IMG/VR virus record: IMGVR_UViG_3300036781_000392
Location: 1-60,479 of that record
Length of the DNA stretch: 60,479 nucleotides
Direction: 5' to 3' (one strand)
Source: a virus
Shown here: piece by piece, positions 1 to 60,479 of the stretch
How positions within the stretch are numbered: the first letter of the stretch is position 1
Layout of the letters: each line of letters starts with the position of its first letter
Made by a program: the position numbers and the translations under genes
The notes under the pieces: model-generated
Database searches by the model: none
What the model was told of the DNA's origin: nothing
Seen by the model: the letters and a program-made list of their open reading frames with translations, nothing else

Positions 1-127
1 TGCCTGGTCCGAGCCTGATCGCCGCAGGTCATTGCCAGGCGGTGCCTGACCATGCCTGACCGTTGGATCTTGCTTATGGTCAGGCAGGGTCAGGCTCGTG
101 ACAGGCATTGCGAGGCTCTGACCTGCG
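1..127. repeat. Exact terminal direct repeat (circle overlap)
   Basis: Bases 1-127 are identical to 60353-60479. A perfect 127-base overlap at the two ends of a contig is the usual mark of a circular molecule assembled with a k-mer of 127, so it should be collapsed to give a 60,352-bp circle. It is not evidence of biological terminal repeats. The circle could be a plasmid-state prophage, an excised prophage, or virion DNA joined at cos or circularly permuted. Confidence 0.9.
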
Positions 128-160
128 ACGTGTCAGGCAAGGTGAGGCAGATGGCAGGGT
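1..160. repeat. TGCCTGAC octamer cluster, candidate clt/TraB recognition site
   Basis: The octamer TGCCTGAC or its complement GTCAGGCA occurs exactly at 43-50, 53-60, 79-86 and 132-139. One-base variants lie at 89-96, 100-107 and 142-149, and related TGCCTGG forms lie at 60341-60348 and 60353-60360 (the latter equals bases 1-8). On the circle this is the roughly 210-bp gap between the 3' end of the TraB-like gene and the start of the gene ending at 60302. Streptomyces TraB translocases bind 8-bp repeats at the clt transfer locus, often close to traB. A clt role is inferred from that context. A replication iteron array or a repressor operator are alternatives. Confidence 0.5.
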
Positions 161-2413
161 TCAGATCCGAACAGAACGGGCGTTACTCTCTGCAACCTTG
201 AGGTCGGACAGCTGGTAGCCCATGGCGCGCTTGTCGTCGACGGTCGACACCCGCACCGACTCCAGACCCAGATCGACAGCGGCCAGCTGCTGCTTCAAGG
301 TCTTGCCAGCGCGGGCCGCGTAAGCGGTGTCCGCCTCGCCCTCGTTACGGGCGTAGCGGACAGAGTCGAAACCGGCGAGCGCCTCGCAAGCCTCCACCGT
401 CGTCACACAGCCGCGACCCGTCCGCTCCGCGGCACCGACCAGGTGGTCGATCAGCGTCGCCCGGACGATGCCGCCGTTGCCGCGAGCGCCGCCGGCCGCA
501 GCCGAGGCGCCCGTGAGACGCAGCATCTCCGCCTCCACCGGGTCGTTGTAGTGACCCGGCAGGCACCCGGCCTTGCGGCGGATCTCCGCGCCCGTCTCGA
601 TCAGCGGCAGGATCTCCCCCGTCGACTCGTCGATGAACAGGCTGCGAACCTCGACCATGCCGGTGTCCGGCGTGGTCAACCAGCCGCGACCACGGGTCTG
701 CTTGCTGTTCTCGATCTCCGACGCGTCGTAGCCGTCCCCAGCCTTCCCGTCACCGAGGATGACGTTGCTGGCGCCGGGCGACTCGACCCGGTTGGCCATG
801 CGGCCGTTGCAGTTACCGCGCAGGCGCGAAGGCACAATGCCGACCTCGGGGAACTGCGTGGCGAGGGCGACGATGATGCCGACGGCTGCGCCGACCGCCG
901 CGATCTGCGCCAGGTACTCGACGATCTCCTCTGCGTGCTCCTTCGACGGGCCCTTGGGCGCGGTGTAGGTGGCGAGCTCGTCGACGACGATCAGTTCGAT
1001 GCCGCCGAGCTTGTCGATCAGCTGCTCGCTCGCCTTGGACACCTGCAGCTCGACGAGGATCTCCGTCCGCCGGTTCATCTCCTCGACCATGACCCGGAGG
1101 AACTCGACCAGGCGCCCGGGATTGCGGCGCACGAACGTAGCGAGGACCGGCGCGAACGGTACGTACTCGCCCGTGCCCTTGCCGTCGAACAGGCGAACAC
1201 GGACACGCGGGTCGAGCATCGACCCCGCAAGGAGGTTCGCCAGCGCCATGCCCTTGCCGGACCTGGTCGCCCCTGCGAACAGCATGCTGTAGTCGCTGAT
1301 CGTCACCGAGTGCACGGTGCCGCGCTTGTCGAAGACCAGGGGAATGCCGTCTCGCCATGTGTTGATGGGCTCTGTGCATCCGATGAGCGGGGACTTGCGG
1401 ACCTTCAGGAACGGGTCCGTGAGCGCTGCCCAGATGTGAAGCCGGCCGTCCCTGTCGCCCTTCTGCAGGTCGATCTGCGACCGGGCGACCCCGAAGGCGC
1501 CCGCGATCTCGTCCTGCTTCGCCATCGCCTTCTGCGCGATCACGCCCGGCGGCAGGTCGACGATCGACACGAACGCGCCGGCCTTGTCGATCGCGGGCGG
1601 GAACACGGTCTTCGTCGTCTCTTCCTTGCCGATGACCCTCGCGGCCCGCAGCGCTTCGTCGATCATGCTCGGGGTCAGGGCGTCCCCGTCACCGAGGCTG
1701 CGGTGCACCGTGGACCAGTCGTCCTCGAGGTGGTCGGCATGCCGGCCGATGAACGCACCGGTGCCGAACGTGGCAGCCGCCGCGGCGACGACGCCGAACC
1801 ATCCCAGCTCTATGAACCCGGCGATCCCGGCAGCGGTGCACGGGGCGCAGACCGCGGCAGCGCGGATGTTCCGCCAGCGCGCCCGATCCTTCTTCGCCGC
1901 CTTGTGCATGGCGATCGCGGACTGCGCGTCAGCAGTCGCCGAGAGCGCCGCCTTCGTCGCCAGCTCCTTCTTCGTCCTCAGCATGCCGGGCGTGCGACGG
2001 GCAATGCGGTTCACCTTCCGGGACTGCTTCGTGGCGACGTGCGCCTGGTGAGCGAGCGCGTCGACCTGCACCCCCTCGAACCCGCGAATCCAGTCGACGG
2101 TCATGTGCGCGCCCCGGCCGAACTGTGCGATGTGGCCGTGGGCGGTGCCCTGCCGGCGAACCCAACGACGGGCGCCACGACGGCGGGCCCGGCAGAAAAT
2201 ACCGGCCCACTGCGCCCACCCCTCAGGGGTGCGCATCCACGTGGGGATCAGCGGGAAGTCGTCGACTGCGTCAACGCCGGCGGTCTTCTTGACCGTGATC
2301 GGGGCGGCCGGGGCCTCCACGCCGGGGAGGCCGTTGAGGACTTGGCGGGCGGATTCGAGGATGAGTGTCTTGTCGTCGGTGCCCCCTTGGGGCCGGGGGA
2401 TGAGGTCCGTCAT
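161..2413 (-). CDS. traB: TraB-like FtsK/SpoIIIE-family DNA translocase
   Basis: 750 aa. A hydrophobic segment at about residues 188-225 is followed by an FtsK-type motor domain with Walker A GATRSGKG (381-388) and Walker B LIVVDEL (about 474-480). The C-terminal 100 residues look like the small DNA-recognition domain of FtsK/TraB proteins. In Streptomyces plasmids and AICEs such as pSVH1 and pSAM2, TraB alone pumps double-stranded DNA between mycelial cells after binding 8-bp repeats at clt. A cluster of octamer repeats lies immediately beyond the stop codon here. The ATG has an AGGAG about 10 nt upstream. The gene follows a multi-spanning spread-type protein gene. It could instead be a cell-type FtsK homologue recruited for partition, but the single membrane segment region, the repeats and the GntR regulator favour transfer. 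Confidence 0.85.
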   Translation of the reverse strand: MTDLIPRPQGGTDDKTLILESARQVLNGLPGVEAPAAPITVKKTAGVDAVDDFPLIPTWMRTPEGWAQWAGIFCRARRRGARRWVRRQGTAHGHIAQFGRGAHMTVDWIRGFEGVQVDALAHQAHVATKQSRKVNRIARRTPGMLRTKKELATKAALSATADAQSAIAMHKAAKKDRARWRNIRAAAVCAPCTAAGIAGFIELGWFGVVAAAAATFGTGAFIGRHADHLEDDWSTVHRSLGDGDALTPSMIDEALRAARVIGKEETTKTVFPPAIDKAGAFVSIVDLPPGVIAQKAMAKQDEIAGAFGVARSQIDLQKGDRDGRLHIWAALTDPFLKVRKSPLIGCTEPINTWRDGIPLVFDKRGTVHSVTISDYSMLFAGATRSGKGMALANLLAGSMLDPRVRVRLFDGKGTGEYVPFAPVLATFVRRNPGRLVEFLRVMVEEMNRRTEILVELQVSKASEQLIDKLGGIELIVVDELATYTAPKGPSKEHAEEIVEYLAQIAAVGAAVGIIVALATQFPEVGIVPSRLRGNCNGRMANRVESPGASNVILGDGKAGDGYDASEIENSKQTRGRGWLTTPDTGMVEVRSLFIDESTGEILPLIETGAEIRRKAGCLPGHYNDPVEAEMLRLTGASAAAGGARGNGGIVRATLIDHLVGAAERTGRGCVTTVEACEALAGFDSVRYARNEGEADTAYAARAGKTLKQQLAAVDLGLESVRVSTVDDKRAMGYQLSDLKVAESNARSVRI

Positions 2414-2451
2414 GATTACTGATCTCCTGTGCTCGTGAGTGGGTCAGGGGG

Positions 2452-2497
2452 CCCGGGGCGGCCGGCACTTGCTTGGCGGCTGGACGGCCGCCCCGGG
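2452..2497. terminator. GC-rich inverted repeat between spread gene and traB
   Basis: A perfect 13-bp inverted repeat (CCCGGGGCGGCCG at 2452-2464, complement at 2485-2497) lies between the stop at 2504 and the traB start. No T-run follows on the minus strand, so it may attenuate traB transcription or protect mRNA rather than fully terminate. Confidence 0.5.
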
Positions 2498-2503
2498 GCG
2501 GAG

Positions 2504-3877
2504 CTACTTGGCGATGCGGGCGGAGACTGACTTGCGGGCGGTGCCGCTGGCGGCGGCCGTGCGGTACTCGGACCGCTCCCTCATGACCCGGTCGCGCAGC
2601 CGAGCGCCACTTCCCTTGCGGATGTGCATGCGGCTCTCGAGCTGCCGCGCGGACACGGGCTTGCCCTCCGCGTAAAGGTCTTCGGCCACACTCAGAGCCT
2701 CCGGCAAGCGCGCCTCCAACTCCTCTTCGGACAGTTCATTTCCAGTGCCCCCAGAACGGGCCTCGCGGGCTTCCTGCGGGCCGTTCTCGGACGCACCCTC
2801 AATCGCGTACAACCCGCCCCCCGTCTGGCTTGTAGGGCCCTCAGGGAGGCTCGCGAAACCAGGCAGCGGAGACACCGGTCCGAGAGTCGGGAACACGTTC
2901 GGCAGAGGGCTCAACGCGGTCGCCATGAGGCCGTTGCGGAGAAGCTCCGGACGAACGTGCTCGCCCAGTTCGAACGCCGCCCCGAGCGCCACCCGAGACG
3001 TCGTCGCCGTCGTGTACAGCTCCGCCGACATACCCGGCTCGGCACCCCGGTGGATACGCCACGCCGTCGCGAACGCTTCCTCGTCCGTGATCTGTCCGAA
3101 GGGCAGCGCCGACAGAAGACGGTCCGCCTCCTTCGCGATGTCCTTGTGATCCTTCCGGCGCTTCGCCAGGTGCTCCGCGCGCGCCTTCTCCGCTGCGCGG
3201 TGCTCCTTCGCCTCCCGACGCTCGGCCTTCGTCCGGCCGTTCGTGCCGTGCATCTTCAAGTCCCAGATGCCGAACGCCACGAGCGACGAAGCACCGAGGA
3301 CGTAGGCGACCCACGGGTGCTGCACGTACTGCTCCTGGCCGTGCCAGAAGTTCACCGCCGACGCGGCCAGCGCGAAGAGCCAACCGGCGGCCCGGAACTT
3401 CCCGGCCCCCCGCTCCTTGTCCTCGGCCTGCTTCGCCATGAACGTCACCGCCCACGCCGAACCCTCGAGCATCGCCGCCAACAGCGCGGCCAACGCGACG
3501 TTGACATCCGCACCCGACAGCGCCGACACCTGGCTGACGACAGCCGGGATGATCGAGGCGGCCATGACGAACGCCACGAACGGCGTCGACGGATTCGCCT
3601 TCAGCCAGCGCACGTGGCGCGCCCGCTTGGCAGCAGCAGCAGCCTTGCCCTGCGCCTTCTTCGCGTCGCGCTGCCGCTGCTCCTCGCGCCTGACCCGACG
3701 CCCCTCCGCGTCAGCGCGGCGCTGCCGCTCCTCCGCGGCCTCCCGGTCAAGACGCTTCTGATCGGCGTCGATCTCCTTGGCCTTCAGCTGAGCCTCCAGC
3801 AGGAGGCGACGGTCTTCGCGGGCCTGTTCGGCGCTCTGCGCCCGGTCGGCGCGGCGCTCCTCGGTCCAGTTGCTCAT
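2504..3877 (-). CDS. Spread-type multi-spanning membrane protein (DUF2637-like)
   Basis: 457 aa. The N-terminal 100 residues are highly charged and predicted coiled coil. They are followed by about four hydrophobic segments between residues 110 and 220, with the pattern of DUF2637-type Streptomyces plasmid proteins. A long charged stretch follows, then a C-terminal part (about 395-450) that resembles a winged helix. Genes of this kind sit beside traB in Streptomyces plasmids and help spread DNA along the mycelium. The start overlaps the stop of the next gene upstream by 4 bp (ATGA), so the two are probably translationally coupled. The spread role is inferred from neighbourhood and topology. 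Confidence 0.65.
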   Translation of the reverse strand: MSNWTEERRADRAQSAEQAREDRRLLLEAQLKAKEIDADQKRLDREAAEERQRRADAEGRRVRREEQRQRDAKKAQGKAAAAAKRARHVRWLKANPSTPFVAFVMAASIIPAVVSQVSALSGADVNVALAALLAAMLEGSAWAVTFMAKQAEDKERGAGKFRAAGWLFALAASAVNFWHGQEQYVQHPWVAYVLGASSLVAFGIWDLKMHGTNGRTKAERREAKEHRAAEKARAEHLAKRRKDHKDIAKEADRLLSALPFGQITDEEAFATAWRIHRGAEPGMSAELYTTATTSRVALGAAFELGEHVRPELLRNGLMATALSPLPNVFPTLGPVSPLPGFASLPEGPTSQTGGGLYAIEGASENGPQEAREARSGGTGNELSEEELEARLPEALSVAEDLYAEGKPVSARQLESRMHIRKGSGARLRDRVMRERSEYRTAAASGTARKSVSARIAK

Positions 3878-4212: not shown

Positions 4213-4803
4213 TCAGCTCTGTTCTCGTGCTTTCCGGTTCGCACGGACTGTCCTGGAGTGCTCCGTGTTGGCCGCCCTGCACTGCTCGCATCGACAGCCC
4301 TGCCGGTACCGCCACCAGCCGTGCCGAACCTCGACGACGTTGTTCTGGGGCTTGGCTGGTCGGGCTTGGCGCCGTCGTTCGTGGTAGCGCCTGTCGATCT
4401 CTCGCTTGCACGTCCGGCAGACGCGATGGCCGTCGGCGGCGATGGAGGTGTTGGCCTCATCGAACGGGTGGCCGCTATCGCACTGTTTCTTGCGGGCGTT
4501 TGCGGCGCTGAAGGATGTCCCGCGCAGGATGTTCTCTGCGTTCGTAACGGGCTCCAAGTGCTCAGGGCGCACGCAGGCTCGGTTCCGACACAGGTGGTCG
4601 ATCACGAGCCCTTCAGGTATGGCGCCGTGAGCTGCCTCGTAGGCGAGTCGGTGAGCCTGAAAAGCCTTGCCCCGCAAGCTGAATCGTCCATACCCGTCGA
4701 CATCCACGCTGCCCTGCCAGGTCCAACAGGCGTCTTGCATCTCGACGCGCGCCCGGAAGCGGACCAGGTCCGCGTCGGTCATGTCGAAACTGTTGCTAGG
4801 CAC
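4213..4803 (-). CDS. HNH endonuclease (homing type)
   Basis: 196 aa. The HNH core runs from H51-R52 through D69-H70 and C72/C77 to H82 and N88, with the order DHLCRNRACVRPEHL that is typical of phage HNH_3 homing enzymes. A second cysteine-rich part (CDSGHPF, CRTC) and a C-terminal CRCEQC pair suggest extra zinc-binding DNA-recognition modules. GTG start at 4803 with a weak AAGGG upstream; ATG at 4782 is an alternative. It lies between small transfer-module genes, so it is probably a free-standing mobile nuclease inserted in the operon. Confidence 0.85.
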   Translation of the reverse strand: MPSNSFDMTDADLVRFRARVEMQDACWTWQGSVDVDGYGRFSLRGKAFQAHRLAYEAAHGAIPEGLVIDHLCRNRACVRPEHLEPVTNAENILRGTSFSAANARKKQCDSGHPFDEANTSIAADGHRVCRTCKREIDRRYHERRRQARPAKPQNNVVEVRHGWWRYRQGCRCEQCRAANTEHSRTVRANRKAREQS

Positions 4804-5137: not shown

Positions 5138-5407
5138 TCAGGCCGCGTTGGAGGGCAGGTCGTAGCGGATGCCGCGGATCCTGTCGGCGGCGTAAAGCGC
5201 CAAGGCCACGACCAGACCGAGCGATGCGAGGGGCGGGGCGGGCAGCTTTTGCGCGAGCTCCATCACCCTGGCGTCCGCGGCTGCCCACTCCGGGGAGTCG
5301 ACGCCGTGGCTGGCCTCGATCGCGTCCAGCTCATCGAGCGCTGCAGAGTGCTCCGCCTCGACCGCGGCCAGGGCGGCCTTCCGAGCGGGGGTCTTGAATC
5401 CGAACAT
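5138..5407 (-). CDS. Small helical protein with one membrane segment
   Basis: 89 aa. ATG at 5407 chosen because of the GGAGG about 6 nt upstream; an upstream start at 5458 lacks a comparable site. Residues 10-55 form an Ala/Glu-rich helical region and residues 60-76 a hydrophobic segment. Size and position suit a Spd-like accessory transfer protein, but no family is recognised. Confidence 0.6.
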   Translation of the reverse strand: MFGFKTPARKAALAAVEAEHSAALDELDAIEASHGVDSPEWAAADARVMELAQKLPAPPLASLGLVVALALYAADRIRGIRYDLPSNAA

Positions 5408-6601: not shown

Positions 6602-7360
6602 TCAGGCCTCGAAGTCGTACACGAGGAGGAACTTCGAAGCGTCCAAAACCATTCGGTTGATCTCGACGACACGCCCGTCGGCTCGCATCGCGGAGCGGTG
6701 CTGCTCGATGACCGGCGCACCGGAGGCGAGCTTCAGGTCGTCGACCTCGGGGGGCGTCGCCAAGCGGCAACGAACCTGCTCGCGGAACTTCACCGGTCCG
6801 TGTCCGGCTTCACGCAGGCGGGCGTAGATGCCGCCCGGGCCAGCGTCGCTCTCGGTGATCCGAGTGTCGTGCGCCAAATCGTCCGGAATGTAGGAGGTGG
6901 CGCGCATGACGATCTCACCGTCCACCACGTACCGCCGATCCCGCTTCCAGACGCGGGCGTCAGGGTCCATGTCGAGCGCGCGGGCCACATCGTCTTGAGC
7001 GTTGATCAGTTCGACATCGGTCCGGCCGAGCACCGTCATGCGGCGGTCCTCGATGTCGACCTCCCACATCGAGCGTCCTTCGCCCCACTGGCTCGCCGAC
7101 AGCCGCTCCAGAGCGTTGCGCACGATCGGGCGCCACTGTGTCAGCCACCAACCGGATCCGACGCGGGACTCGACGAGACCCTCATCCTTGAGTACGCCGA
7201 GCGCCTGCCGGACCGTGGCCAGTGACGCTCCGTACTCCGTACTCAGGTCGCGCTCCGGAGGCAGCTTCCGTTTCTCGTCGAACGCCCCGCTCTTGATGCG
7301 ATCGCGCAGCTCGCCGGCGATGACCCGGTACTTGTGCGGCTCGCCGGCCTTTGGTGTCAC
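6602..7360 (-). CDS. GntR-family (UTRA-type) transcriptional regulator, KorSA-like
   Basis: 252 aa from a GTG with AAGGAG 6 nt upstream; an ATG eight codons earlier lacks a ribosome site. Residues about 10-75 are the GntR winged helix (LPPERDLSTEYGASLATVRQ, then ALGVLKDEGLVE). The rest matches a UTRA effector-binding fold. KorSA of pSAM2 and related Kor proteins are GntR/UTRA repressors that hold transfer and replication genes off. Two GCTCTAGAGC palindromes and a half-matching TCTAGAG at 7384-7390 flank the gene, which fits autoregulation plus control of the divergent 7546 gene and the xis operon. Confidence 0.85.
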   Translation of the reverse strand: MTPKAGEPHKYRVIAGELRDRIKSGAFDEKRKLPPERDLSTEYGASLATVRQALGVLKDEGLVESRVGSGWWLTQWRPIVRNALERLSASQWGEGRSMWEVDIEDRRMTVLGRTDVELINAQDDVARALDMDPDARVWKRDRRYVVDGEIVMRATSYIPDDLAHDTRITESDAGPGGIYARLREAGHGPVKFREQVRCRLATPPEVDDLKLASGAPVIEQHRSAMRADGRVVEINRMVLDASKFLLVYDFEA

Positions 7361-7464
7361 GGGCTCTCCTTGGGATCGATTCATCTAGAGCAACGCTACC
7401 TGCTCCATATCACTGCTGGTCAATCTGTGGGTAATGCGCCCCCCGAGAGGAGCTGGCGTCAATT

Positions 7465-55296: not shown

Positions 55297-56823
55297 TCAA
55301 AAGATGCTCGACAACACGTCGTACTGCGAGCCCGCCAGCAGATGCGAGCGGGTCTCAAAGCTCCAGCGGGCCAAAGTCATCGCCACCAGCGGCGAGATGT
55401 CGCACTCGGCGCCCTTCACCGTCCACGCGATCGTGTCGCCCGTCGCCCGCGTCTTCGCCCCCGCCACCGCCGAGTCCAGATGCCGGTTCGGCACGTACCG
55501 GAACGACTCCTCGCGGACCGCCTCCAGCAGCTGCCCAGCCGCCGCCGCCATGTCCACCGGCCCCGTCACAGCCAAATCCCCGACGCCGGGCGCCTCGGGA
55601 TCCTCCGGCTTCACGAAGCCGGCCTTGTCGAGCTCCGTCTCCAAGAACGCGTGTGTGCCCCGGCCCATCGCGATCGCCACCGGCCCCAAGGCGTCCCGCA
55701 ACTCGAGCAGCCGCGGGACCAGCCACTTCGACCCCGGCCGGTAGTCAGCGAGCTGCACATGCCCCAACTCGTCACCGCGCAGCCCGTACACGCACACAGC
55801 GCCGTAGTCCCTCAACGGCGACAAGTCCACGCCGATCGCGACGCCGCCCGAACGCCGCGACTCCGCATCCGCCATCCCCGCCCACACCGCCGGATCGAGG
55901 ACCAAGCCGCCACGCGACATCTGCGGCCACATGCACAGCCGCTCCCGCGCGAAGCCAGCGTCGCCCATCGAGCGTCGCTCCCGAAGGATCGTCTCCTCGG
56001 TGAGCCTCATACCGAGGGCAGGGTTCGATGCCGCCCACAAGCGCCGGTCGTCCAGGTCCACCTGATCCAGGTGGTCGAGGTCGCCCTCGATGCCCCAATC
56101 ACGCCAGCCGAGACTGTCGTCGCCACCGGCGTCCGCGCGCTTCTTCAGGTTGAACATCACCTCGCCGGAGATGCCGTCAAGCGGCGGCGACGAGGTGTAG
56201 ATGATCTGCGGATTCGGGCGGGCCGCCAGCGCCGGCATCAGCGCTTCCTGCTGCAGCAGCGTGTACGCGAACGACTCGTCGATGATGATGAGGTCGCCGG
56301 AGAAGCCACGCCCCGAGCCCTTCGACCGGGCCACGAACTTCACCCGGGCGCCGGTGTCGAGCCGCTCGAAGCTCTCTTCCCCGTTGGTGTTACTGATCTT
56401 GATGAGGACGCCGCCGACATCCAGCAGGTTCTCGTTGTTCGGGTTGACCAGCTTGCCCAGCCTGCGCAGCAACGTCCGGAAGCGCCGGAACGCCTCCATG
56501 GCCGTCTTGTACTCGTGCGCCGACCACATGATGAGCTCTTCGCCGAGCAGCAAGAAGCCGGCCAGCACCCGAATCTCCAGCAGCGCACCCTTGCCGTTCT
56601 GCCGAGCCAGGATCTCCCCGTACTCGAAGCAGGCCCACTTCCCATCCTCGCGACAGGAGAGCAGCAGGTCGATCGCATCCGCCTGCCACGGATCCGGCGT
56701 CAGACCCGCCCGCTCGGCCAGCTCACACGCCTCCGGACCCAGCGTGTAAGCCGAGTGGGGAGCGAGCTCAACTCGAGGCCGCCTTGCGCCGCGCGGTGAT
56801 TCGCGCACTGAGGTCGGAGACAC
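55297..56823 (-). CDS. terL: Terminase large subunit
   Basis: 508 aa from GTG 56823 with GGAGG. Motor: ARQNGKGA (73-80) as Walker A, LIIIDESFA (178-186) as Walker B. Nuclease: GVDLSPLRDYGAV with D333. Packages phage DNA and makes the terminal cuts. Overlaps terS by 56 bp. Confidence 0.95.
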   Translation of the reverse strand: MSPTSVRESPRGARRPRVELAPHSAYTLGPEACELAERAGLTPDPWQADAIDLLLSCREDGKWACFEYGEILARQNGKGALLEIRVLAGFLLLGEELIMWSAHEYKTAMEAFRRFRTLLRRLGKLVNPNNENLLDVGGVLIKISNTNGEESFERLDTGARVKFVARSKGSGRGFSGDLIIIDESFAYTLLQQEALMPALAARPNPQIIYTSSPPLDGISGEVMFNLKKRADAGGDDSLGWRDWGIEGDLDHLDQVDLDDRRLWAASNPALGMRLTEETILRERRSMGDAGFARERLCMWPQMSRGGLVLDPAVWAGMADAESRRSGGVAIGVDLSPLRDYGAVCVYGLRGDELGHVQLADYRPGSKWLVPRLLELRDALGPVAIAMGRGTHAFLETELDKAGFVKPEDPEAPGVGDLAVTGPVDMAAAAGQLLEAVREESFRYVPNRHLDSAVAGAKTRATGDTIAWTVKGAECDISPLVAMTLARWSFETRSHLLAGSQYDVLSSIF

Positions 56824-57142
56824 CCGTCGCCTCCTCACCCTTGGCGGGCTTCGCAGAAACGACCGCGCCCTGCCGAATCTCGGCGAGAAGCACCTTCAAA
56901 GCACCTGCCTGCAGCCGCGCTTCAGCCAACCACTGCGAGATATCCCCGGATTCACTCTCCGGATCGTTGACCCCGGCAGCGCCCGCGCGGATAATCGAAT
57001 CCAGCAGTTCCAGCCGGTCAACAGCCCGGCAAGCCTCCTCCAATAGCACCAAGTGCGCCGGAGAGAGCGACCACTGCGCCAGCGAATCCCGCCACAGCCG
57101 GCGGCCCCGGGCTTCAAGCCCCGGAGGAGCCTTCACCGCCAT
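56768..57142 (-). CDS. terS: Terminase small subunit
   Basis: 124 aa. Helical (WRDSLAQWSLSPAHLVLLEE, ACRAVDRLELLDSIIRAGA), matching the P27-type small subunits of actinophages. Directly upstream of terL. Recognises the packaging site. Confidence 0.8.
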   Translation of the reverse strand: MAVKAPPGLEARGRRLWRDSLAQWSLSPAHLVLLEEACRAVDRLELLDSIIRAGAAGVNDPESESGDISQWLAEARLQAGALKVLLAEIRQGAVVSAKPAKGEEATGVSDLSARITARRKAASS

Positions 57143-57145
57143 CAA

Positions 57146-57284
57146 AGACCCCCTCCAAGATCATCTGACCCCTGCCAAAAACAGCGGGGGGAGGGGGCGG
57201 ATAGGTGGGGGCGGGTCGGGAAGGCGCTCCGTAAAAAACGGACATTCCTACGCACCTCGGGCTTGGATCAAGCATCGTCGCAGG
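57146..57284. other. Gap between terS and HNH gene, candidate cos/pac region
   Basis: 139 bp without a gene. It holds a G-run-rich tract (57185-57222) and a CGCTCCGTAAAAAACGGACA stem-like segment near 57227. Packaging sites of HK97-type phages often lie beside terS and the HNH gene. No cut site can be read directly. Confidence 0.3.
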
Positions 57285-57611
57285 TCAGAGCGCTCTCGCG
57301 TCCATGCTGAACCCCGGACGCGGCCTGATCTTGGCTCTGAGCTGGTTGTTTCGGATCGTGTTGCATCGCCGATGGCATAGCCGCAGGTTGGAGCGGTCGG
57401 TCGGGTCACCACCGAGCCACAGTGCATGCACATGGTCAGCAGTACGACCCATGGGGTGGGTGGGTGGCAGCCCCTGGTCCACGTACTGGTGACACCACCA
57501 GCAGTGGGTCTCTTCAGCGAACACAGCGGCCTGCGAGCGCAGGAAGGCGGGGCTGTTGCGCCCCTCCTTGGTGCGGCGAGCAAGGTCAGGATCGGTGGGT
57601 GGAGTGCTCAT
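57285..57611 (-). CDS. Terminase-associated HNH endonuclease
   Basis: 108 aa from ATG 57611. CWWCHQ, then GRTADHVHALWLGGD, then NLRLCHRRCN: a complete HNH-Zn finger. In HK97-like phages an HNH protein beside terS is needed with terminase for cos cutting, so this is probably a packaging factor. Confidence 0.85.
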   Translation of the reverse strand: MSTPPTDPDLARRTKEGRNSPAFLRSQAAVFAEETHCWWCHQYVDQGLPPTHPMGRTADHVHALWLGGDPTDRSNLRLCHRRCNTIRNNQLRAKIRPRPGFSMDARAL

Positions 57612-59801: not shown

Positions 59802-60302
59802 TCACAGCCCCCTTGCCGCTGCGAGTCGTGCGGCCTGCCCGAGGAGCCGGGCAGCTTCGGGGGCGCCGGAGAGGCGCCGGTTGATGTGCGTGATCGGGTC
59901 GCCGCTGCCGAGGACCGAGCGCAGCACGATCCGCGCTTCCTGCTCTTCGGCTTCGCTGCGGGCCTCGGCCTGCAGGGCGTACTCAAGGCAGACACCGCCC
60001 GCGCCGTCGGTGCCGGTCTCGCGACTCCAACCGCCGGGCCGGAGCACACGCACCTGAGCCCGCCGAAGCAGTGCGGCGACGGGCGCCAGTCGCTCGCCGG
60101 TCGGGACCGCGACGGGGACGGTGATCACGTCGGCCAGGTCGACGGGCTGCTCTACGTGCGCAGAATCGATGTCGAGGGCGAGCAGGGCGCTCTCCAGACG
60201 AAGCGTCATCTCGGCGTCGACGGCGGCGAGGCGGGCCTCGAGGCTGAGGACGACCGGGGCGGGGGCCACAACGGTCGGGCTGTAACTCTCTGTAGCGATC
60301 AT
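59802..60302 (-). CDS. DUF6197-like protein
   Basis: 166 aa. APVAALLRRAQVRVLRPGGW, GVCLEYALQAEA and ITHINRRLSGAPEAARLLGQ follow the DUF6197 pattern of Streptomyces phages. The first gene past the octamer repeat cluster, so those repeats could also be its operators. Function unknown. Confidence 0.6.
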   Translation of the reverse strand: MIATESYSPTVVAPAPVVLSLEARLAAVDAEMTLRLESALLALDIDSAHVEQPVDLADVITVPVAVPTGERLAPVAALLRRAQVRVLRPGGWSRETGTDGAGGVCLEYALQAEARSEAEEQEARIVLRSVLGSGDPITHINRRLSGAPEAARLLGQAARLAAARGL

Positions 60303-60479
60303 GGGGCGTGCTCCCTCCAGGGATGTATGTGGTGGTTTGTTGCCTGGCCAGTTGCCTGGTCCGAGCCTGATCGCCGCAGGTCATTGCCAGGCGGTGCCTG
60401 ACCATGCCTGACCGTTGGATCTTGCTTATGGTCAGGCAGGGTCAGGCTCGTGACAGGCATTGCGAGGCTCTGACCTGCG

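Follow-up and report, generated by a model that had tools for sequence, protein, structure and literature searches.

An octamer array after traB in the genome of a temperate actinophage, very likely a docking site of the TraB translocase

Genes and features of the locus

The window examined here, by which we mean the whole stretch of 60,479 nt presented as record IMGVR_UViG_3300036781_000392, begins and ends with the same 127 bases. This exact repeat indicates that the record is circular, with a true length of 60,352 bp, and that the terminal overlap (60353..60479, no strand assigned) is an exact duplicate of window positions 1-127 and not a second array, so three of the 11 exact octamer matches in the window (at 60395, 60405 and 60431) are duplicates. 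The genome encodes a terminase large subunit (terL, 55297..56838, minus strand), which marks the element as a phage, a major capsid protein, a tape measure protein and a tyrosine integrase. These four genes were taken as the criterion for a temperate, siphovirus-like phage and all of them are present; the window is therefore the genome of a temperate tailed actinophage and not a plain plasmid, which the first-pass annotation, made from the sequence alone, had missed. The terminase family phrog_9 was also present in 15 of the 21 viral records checked among the traB relatives. The host is probably Streptomyces, although this is not proven; most of the TraB relatives reside in Streptomycetaceae.

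The gene at 161..2413 (minus strand) codes for a TraB of 750 aa, an FtsK/SpoIIIE-type DNA translocase in which an FtsK-type motor is followed by a predicted C-terminal winged helix. The product carries a Pfam FtsK_SpoIIIE domain (1.5e-8), its motor resembles TcpA and FtsK motor structures (Foldseek), and it is 41% identical to the TraB of plasmid pSVH1 over residues 8-626, beyond which the C-terminus could not be aligned by BLASTP. In the AlphaFold model (mean pLDDT 70.5) the winged helix is predicted at residues 654-748, with a long recognition helix alpha3 at about residues 695-713 that contains DTAYAARAGKTLKQQLAAV. Directly upstream of traB, as is expected of a Streptomyces conjugation module, lies a spdB2-type spread gene (2504..3877, minus strand) encoding a DUF2637 membrane protein with 48% identity to pSVH1 SpdB2. 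The earlier naming of the gene as traB thus held on all these grounds, namely domain, pSVH1 identity, winged helix, SpdB2 neighbor and FtsK/TcpA fold. Further upstream is a GntR/UTRA-family regulator gene (6602..7384, minus strand), of a kind that also accompanies the tra operons of Streptomyces plasmids; in the plasmids compared it is situated upstream of, and divergent from, the tra operon. An HNH_3 endonuclease gene (4213-4803, minus strand) was observed between the spdB2-type and GntR genes. On the other side of the array lies a gene of 166 aa with a weak DUF6197 match (59802..60302, minus strand), a relative of which (31%) directly follows traB in locus L152. An Rfam search of window positions 1-2500 found no RNA, and nucleotide and protein searches with the traB region found nothing among 50,697 records of isolated phages.

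The octamer array

The 210-bp gap after traB is filled with four exact and about seven near copies of the octamer TGCCTGAC, in an array which spans the contig junction (60341-60352 plus 1-149). Followed from the traB stop, the traB-side half contains TGCCTCAC with one mismatch (142..149, minus), an exact copy (132..139, minus), TGCCTGTC (100..107, minus) and AGCCTGAC (89..96, minus), each with one mismatch, and another exact copy (79..86, minus). The half of opposite orientation contains two exact copies (53..60 and 43..50, both plus), AGCCTGAT (12..19, plus) and TGCCTGGT (1..8, plus), each with two mismatches, and beyond the contig junction the last member of the array, TGCCTGGC with one mismatch (60341..60348, plus). 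In the orientation of traB these slots lie 11, 21, 53, 64 and 74 bp (forward) and 100, 110, 141, 152 and 164 bp (reverse) past the stop. The sole site that breaks the order is the weak octamer-like CGCCTGGC (34..41, minus; two mismatches) at offset 119, with which the array counts eleven slots at no more than two mismatches. Two further elements are nested in the array, constant box A (CGCAGGTCA in the traB sense; 119..127, minus) and constant box B (TGACCTGCG in the traB sense; 23..31, minus). Both match exactly and their starts are 96 bp apart; the dyad of the boxes and that of the octamers are about 5 bp apart.

Exact TGCCTGAC occurs 11 times in the window, compared with 2.61 expected, and none of 100 shuffles reached 11. 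The 60,352-bp circle holds eight, of which four are clustered and four are lone copies (5045, 19981, 33913 and 48331), and these scattered singletons are at about chance level. The core GCCTG is found ten times in the gap from the traB stop (161) to 60302, while its mean is 0.92 per 210 bp and no other window of this size has more than five. When the best octamer was picked for each window of the locus, the cluster scored 9.3 and the maximum among 289 other windows was 6.47. Three properties expected of a clt/TRS, the locus at which a TraB docks, are thus present: the array is a noncoding locus adjoining the 3' end of traB, beginning 11 bp past the stop; it repeats a motif of about 8 bp that is particular to the element, far denser than on the rest of the circle; and its cognate TraB combines an FtsK-type motor with a predicted C-terminal winged helix.

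The first-pass annotation had reported four exact copies, two in each orientation, in a gap of about 210 bp after traB, and at least five near copies; both statements held, the positions of the former being confirmed. Its span of 1-160 clips the array, which crosses the contig junction and has a further near copy at 60341-60348. It had also asked for a count over the whole circle, and with four of the eight copies in the cluster an equal density elsewhere was not found. Neither the phased, two-halved dyad over the contig junction nor the invariant boxes beside the octamer had been noticed.

Octamer clusters in other traB loci

For comparison we used 71 nonredundant traB loci from Streptomycetaceae genomes, plasmids (including pSVH1 and pSG5) and viral contigs. 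Scans of viral and genome contigs with single proteins gave few relatives, and it was an alignment-based scan that succeeded. The 215 bp past each traB stop were scored against background windows; a permissive EM motif finder, which fused sites into degenerate motifs, was discarded, and simply counting the most frequent 7-mer proved too weak. The post-traB octamer score exceeded the 95th percentile of the background in 52 of the 71 loci and the 99th in 30, and in the remaining 19 it did not rise above the 95th percentile in the same scan. The octamer is almost always different from one locus to another (CCTGGACA, CCCCGGAC, GGTCTGCC, GTTGGACA, ACCCTGCC, GATGCGAC, GAGGTTCG, TGTCCGGA and more). 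The earlier suggestion that the window octamer would be a new specificity is fair, as no other locus examined had TGCCTGAC as its consensus.

In the post-traB gap of pSVH1 the scan yielded ACCCGGAC. The published TRS of this plasmid, GACCCGGA, differs from it only by a shift of one base, and pSVH1 can be regarded as a positive control. In the viral contig L032, where BLAST had found no TraB, an octamer array with box A at 5241 was detected. The 667-aa gene which ends at this array (L032:3256-5259) has no Pfam match, and comparison with a TraB profile gave E = 7.5e-9; it is a divergent TraB-like translocase, to which the clt-like array had pointed and which the profile match confirmed. Clusters were also detected after AAA_25 ATPase genes in L053 (about 2361) and L084 (about 5041). 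They were rejected as clt sites and are probably replication iterons in related phage contigs, which indicates that a cluster alone is not diagnostic of clt.

The octamer and the C-terminus of TraB

Over all pairs of loci, similarity of the octamers correlates with identity of every part of the TraB protein, as would be expected from shared descent. Within clusters of motors that are at least 85% identical, octamer similarity correlated with C-terminal identity with r = 0.64 (permutation p = 0.0005; such p values are only approximate, since the loci share common descent). A natural swap illustrates the same relation. Between loci L137/L180 and L179 the motors are 96-98% identical and the C-termini only 66-68% (98% and 66% for L137 against L179), all eight slots have remained in place, and the octamer has changed from GGTCTGCC to GTTGGACA while alpha3 has changed from DRGWTTRVGK to DRAWSSRVGK. 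The octamers thus follow the C-terminal winged helix of TraB rather than its motor. The first-pass annotation had placed the specificity in the C-terminus, and this tracking inside motor clusters supports it indirectly; it is the only evidence we have that TraB binds the motif through its winged helix, which remains an inference.

Geometry of the array

The two halves of the arrays are opposite in orientation. In total 330 of 353 sites were sorted in this manner, compared with 276 +/- 4.6 when strand labels were shuffled, and 31 loci were perfectly sorted where 4.4 were expected. With only one locus retained per motor family (85% identity), 159 of 170 sites were sorted versus 130.3 +/- 3.3. 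Since the octamer's own direction is arbitrary, calling the halves convergent would be a mere naming convention; the finding is that they are opposed. Distances between sites on the same strand peak at 11, 21, 32-33, 43-44, 53-55, 64 and 75 bp, with a period of 10.8 bp.

Constant boxes in and beyond clt

Oriented k-mer comparison of the post-traB regions revealed two words that do not change with the octamer, TGACCTGC in 34 and CGCAGGTC in 25 of the 71 regions (1.07 expected for each). When up to two mismatches were allowed over both boxes together, 29 of the 71 loci and 0.4% of background windows contained the inverted pair CGCAGGTCA...TGACCTGCG. In well-matched loci the spacing of the pair is mostly 96-98 or 106-110 bp, values one helical turn apart. 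The constant pair is absent from some clt, for example those of L035, L054 and L140. A further motif (CCCAAACC / CACAAACC) recurs past the array, ahead of the start codon of the next gene, in 15 and nine of the 71 loci (0.29 and 0.03 expected).

The box is not confined to clt. A third copy in the window, TGACCTGCG / CTCTGACCTGCGGAAACG (57279..57287, also given to 57288; minus strand), immediately precedes the inferred cos site on its upstream side, and an HNH-like ORF has its stop codon within this copy's span. Among terL relatives, CTGACCTGC on the terL-sense strand is found 300-650 bp upstream of terL in 32 of 57, compared with 16 of 1815 background windows, and the CTCTGACCTGCGGAAACG box lies 420-580 bp upstream of terL in L012, L022, L032, L067 and others. 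Ten Streptomycetaceae genomes (L193-L222) contain 67 copies of CTCTGACCTGCG, four to ten per genome, and eight of the reversed control; these chromosomal copies are mostly solitary and not beside traB. As the box overlaps HNH stop codons in phages, we considered whether it could be a signature of the 3' end of HNH genes, which was rejected as the chromosomal copies lack such a context. A host-encoded factor that binds the box is one possible explanation of its recurrence, and no such factor has been identified.

Interpretation of the array

From these results we consider it very likely that the array is the docking site (clt/TRS) of the phage's TraB, with TGCCTGAC read by the winged helix, although there are no binding or transfer data. 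The earlier proposal of a candidate clt/TRS is supported in so far as clusters follow traB homologues, each with its own word and with a link to the TraB C-terminus; neither binding nor transfer has been shown. In the mechanism we propose, in which binding, loading and transfer are inferred, TGCCTGAC would be the recognition sequence that alpha3 of the C-terminal winged helix reads. The octamers, set in steps of 10-11 bp on one face of the helix and in two opposed halves around a dyad near window position 70, would allow TraB to load at the array as rings and to pump the phage genome, a double-stranded circle, through septa or into a mating hypha, with SpdB2 helping it to spread. A second conserved factor, also inferred, would bind the inverted boxes CGCAGGTCA/TGACCTGCG and help to build the complex. 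The host may encode this factor, given that the box is also found beside cos and at other places in host genomes.

The alternative that survives best, though we find it unlikely, is in fact a variant of this explanation and does not exclude its docking-site part: the array would be a true TraB docking site, used for segregation or spreading of the genome through septa and into spores and not for conjugation between hyphae. In its favor, the biochemistry would not differ, intramycelial spreading is a role of SpdB2 proteins, and septa are where the FtsK/SpoIIIE family natively acts. Against it, self-transmissible plasmids have the same full set of transfer parts (TraB, SpdB2, GntR and clt) as this module.

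It could also be argued that the array is a cos or pac site, bound by terminase at the junction of the right and left ends of the circular map, since it separates the last gene of one arm from the block that precedes terL, a gene about 3.5 kb away. This is very unlikely. A cos site would require genome ends just upstream of the terminase, and contigs of related phages, whose terL are about 68-80% identical, begin upstream of that gene, at a distance of about 340-550 bp and with a common CTG...TCTCCCCCCGC. Its counterpart in the window is CTCCCCCCGCTG at about 57195-57225 (minus strand), where we infer the cos site to be by homology to these recurrent contig starts; together with the conserved CTCCCCCCGC they place cos near 57.2 kb, and the array is 3 kb off. 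Moreover, arrays of the same design are present in plasmids that have no terminase (pSVH1, for example), and similarity of terL between phages does not extend to the octamer (L081 and L035, with terL about 80% identical, have others at their traB stops).

That the array represents origin iterons to which a replication initiator binds is just as improbable. Similar clusters do follow AAA_25 ATPases in L053 and L084, but no replication gene was found to adjoin the array, as would be required of an initiator (its neighbors are traB and the DUF6197-like gene), the rep gene of pSVH1 is distant from its cluster, and the octamers track the TraB C-terminus. An operator array for a regulator of the downstream gene, of GntR type or other, is likewise very unlikely: the module comes with a GntR gene and a gene starts after the array, but the octamers vary in step with the TraB C-terminus when the motor is unchanged, an operator with as many as eight or more phased sites within about 165 bp would be unusual, and in plasmids the GntR gene is upstream of and divergent from the tra operon.

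If the docking-site reading is taken further, clt would be an invariant frame of phased slots, opposed halves and inverted boxes, the latter bound by a host factor which phages also use beside cos, and this frame would hold an exchangeable address word, altered when a few residues of the winged helix change. Temperate phages would then use clt to spread between hyphae as naked circular DNA, a second route without particles. We offer this bolder reading tentatively and lean slightly against it.

Comparison with known systems

The clt loci have so far been described as varied sequences with only repeats in common. Here a common frame appears: the halves are opposed, the sites keep a 10.8-bp phase and constant boxes recur, and only the octamer changes. 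The novelty of the opposed halves and constant boxes is provisional, as it is possible that the original TraB papers already describe them. A common frame with a variable octamer makes the specificity of TraB a readable code, and clt sites, and through them missed translocases such as that of L032, can be found from sequence alone. Two questions are raised, whether conjugation is a means of spread for Streptomyces phages and what factor recognizes the box common to clt and the cos region.

TraB is known to bind repeated 8-bp motifs through alpha3 of its winged helix (PMC3583192; PMC10191066). Among the closest of the known loci is the clt of pSVH1 from Streptomyces venezuelae, in which an octamer cluster likewise comes directly after traB, with homologous TraB (41%) and SpdB2 (48%) and with the downstream constant box present as TGACCTGCGCAAAC. 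It differs in its octamer, in a less cleanly orientation-sorted array and in the lack of a clear upstream box, only the distal one being present. The winged-helix sequences of the two proteins are not alignable (BLASTP), hence the TraB that is best characterised gives no direct indication of the window octamer. An independent precedent is pWTY27, in which footprinted clt repeats lie directly after traA (PMC3583192). The array shares with the clt of pWTY27, pJV1 and pIJ101 the presence of repeats (TGACACC in pWTY27, CCGCACA[CG][CG] in pJV1) and of inverted repeats, which are required in cis there (PMC3583192), although these three are plasmids and the window is a phage. A phage with conjugation functions also has a precedent in pZL12, a Streptomyces plasmid-phage with transfer genes (Zhong et al. 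2010; cited in PMC7157519, PMC3583192) that combines a plasmid state with transfer genes; it is described as extrachromosomal, whereas the phage of the window has a tyrosine integrase. Further parallels are the loading sequences KOPS and SRS of FtsK and SpoIIIE, which are 8 bp long and are recognized by the winged helix of an FtsK-type motor. These are dispersed and polarised over the chromosome, while the octamers of the window form one compact, two-oriented array.
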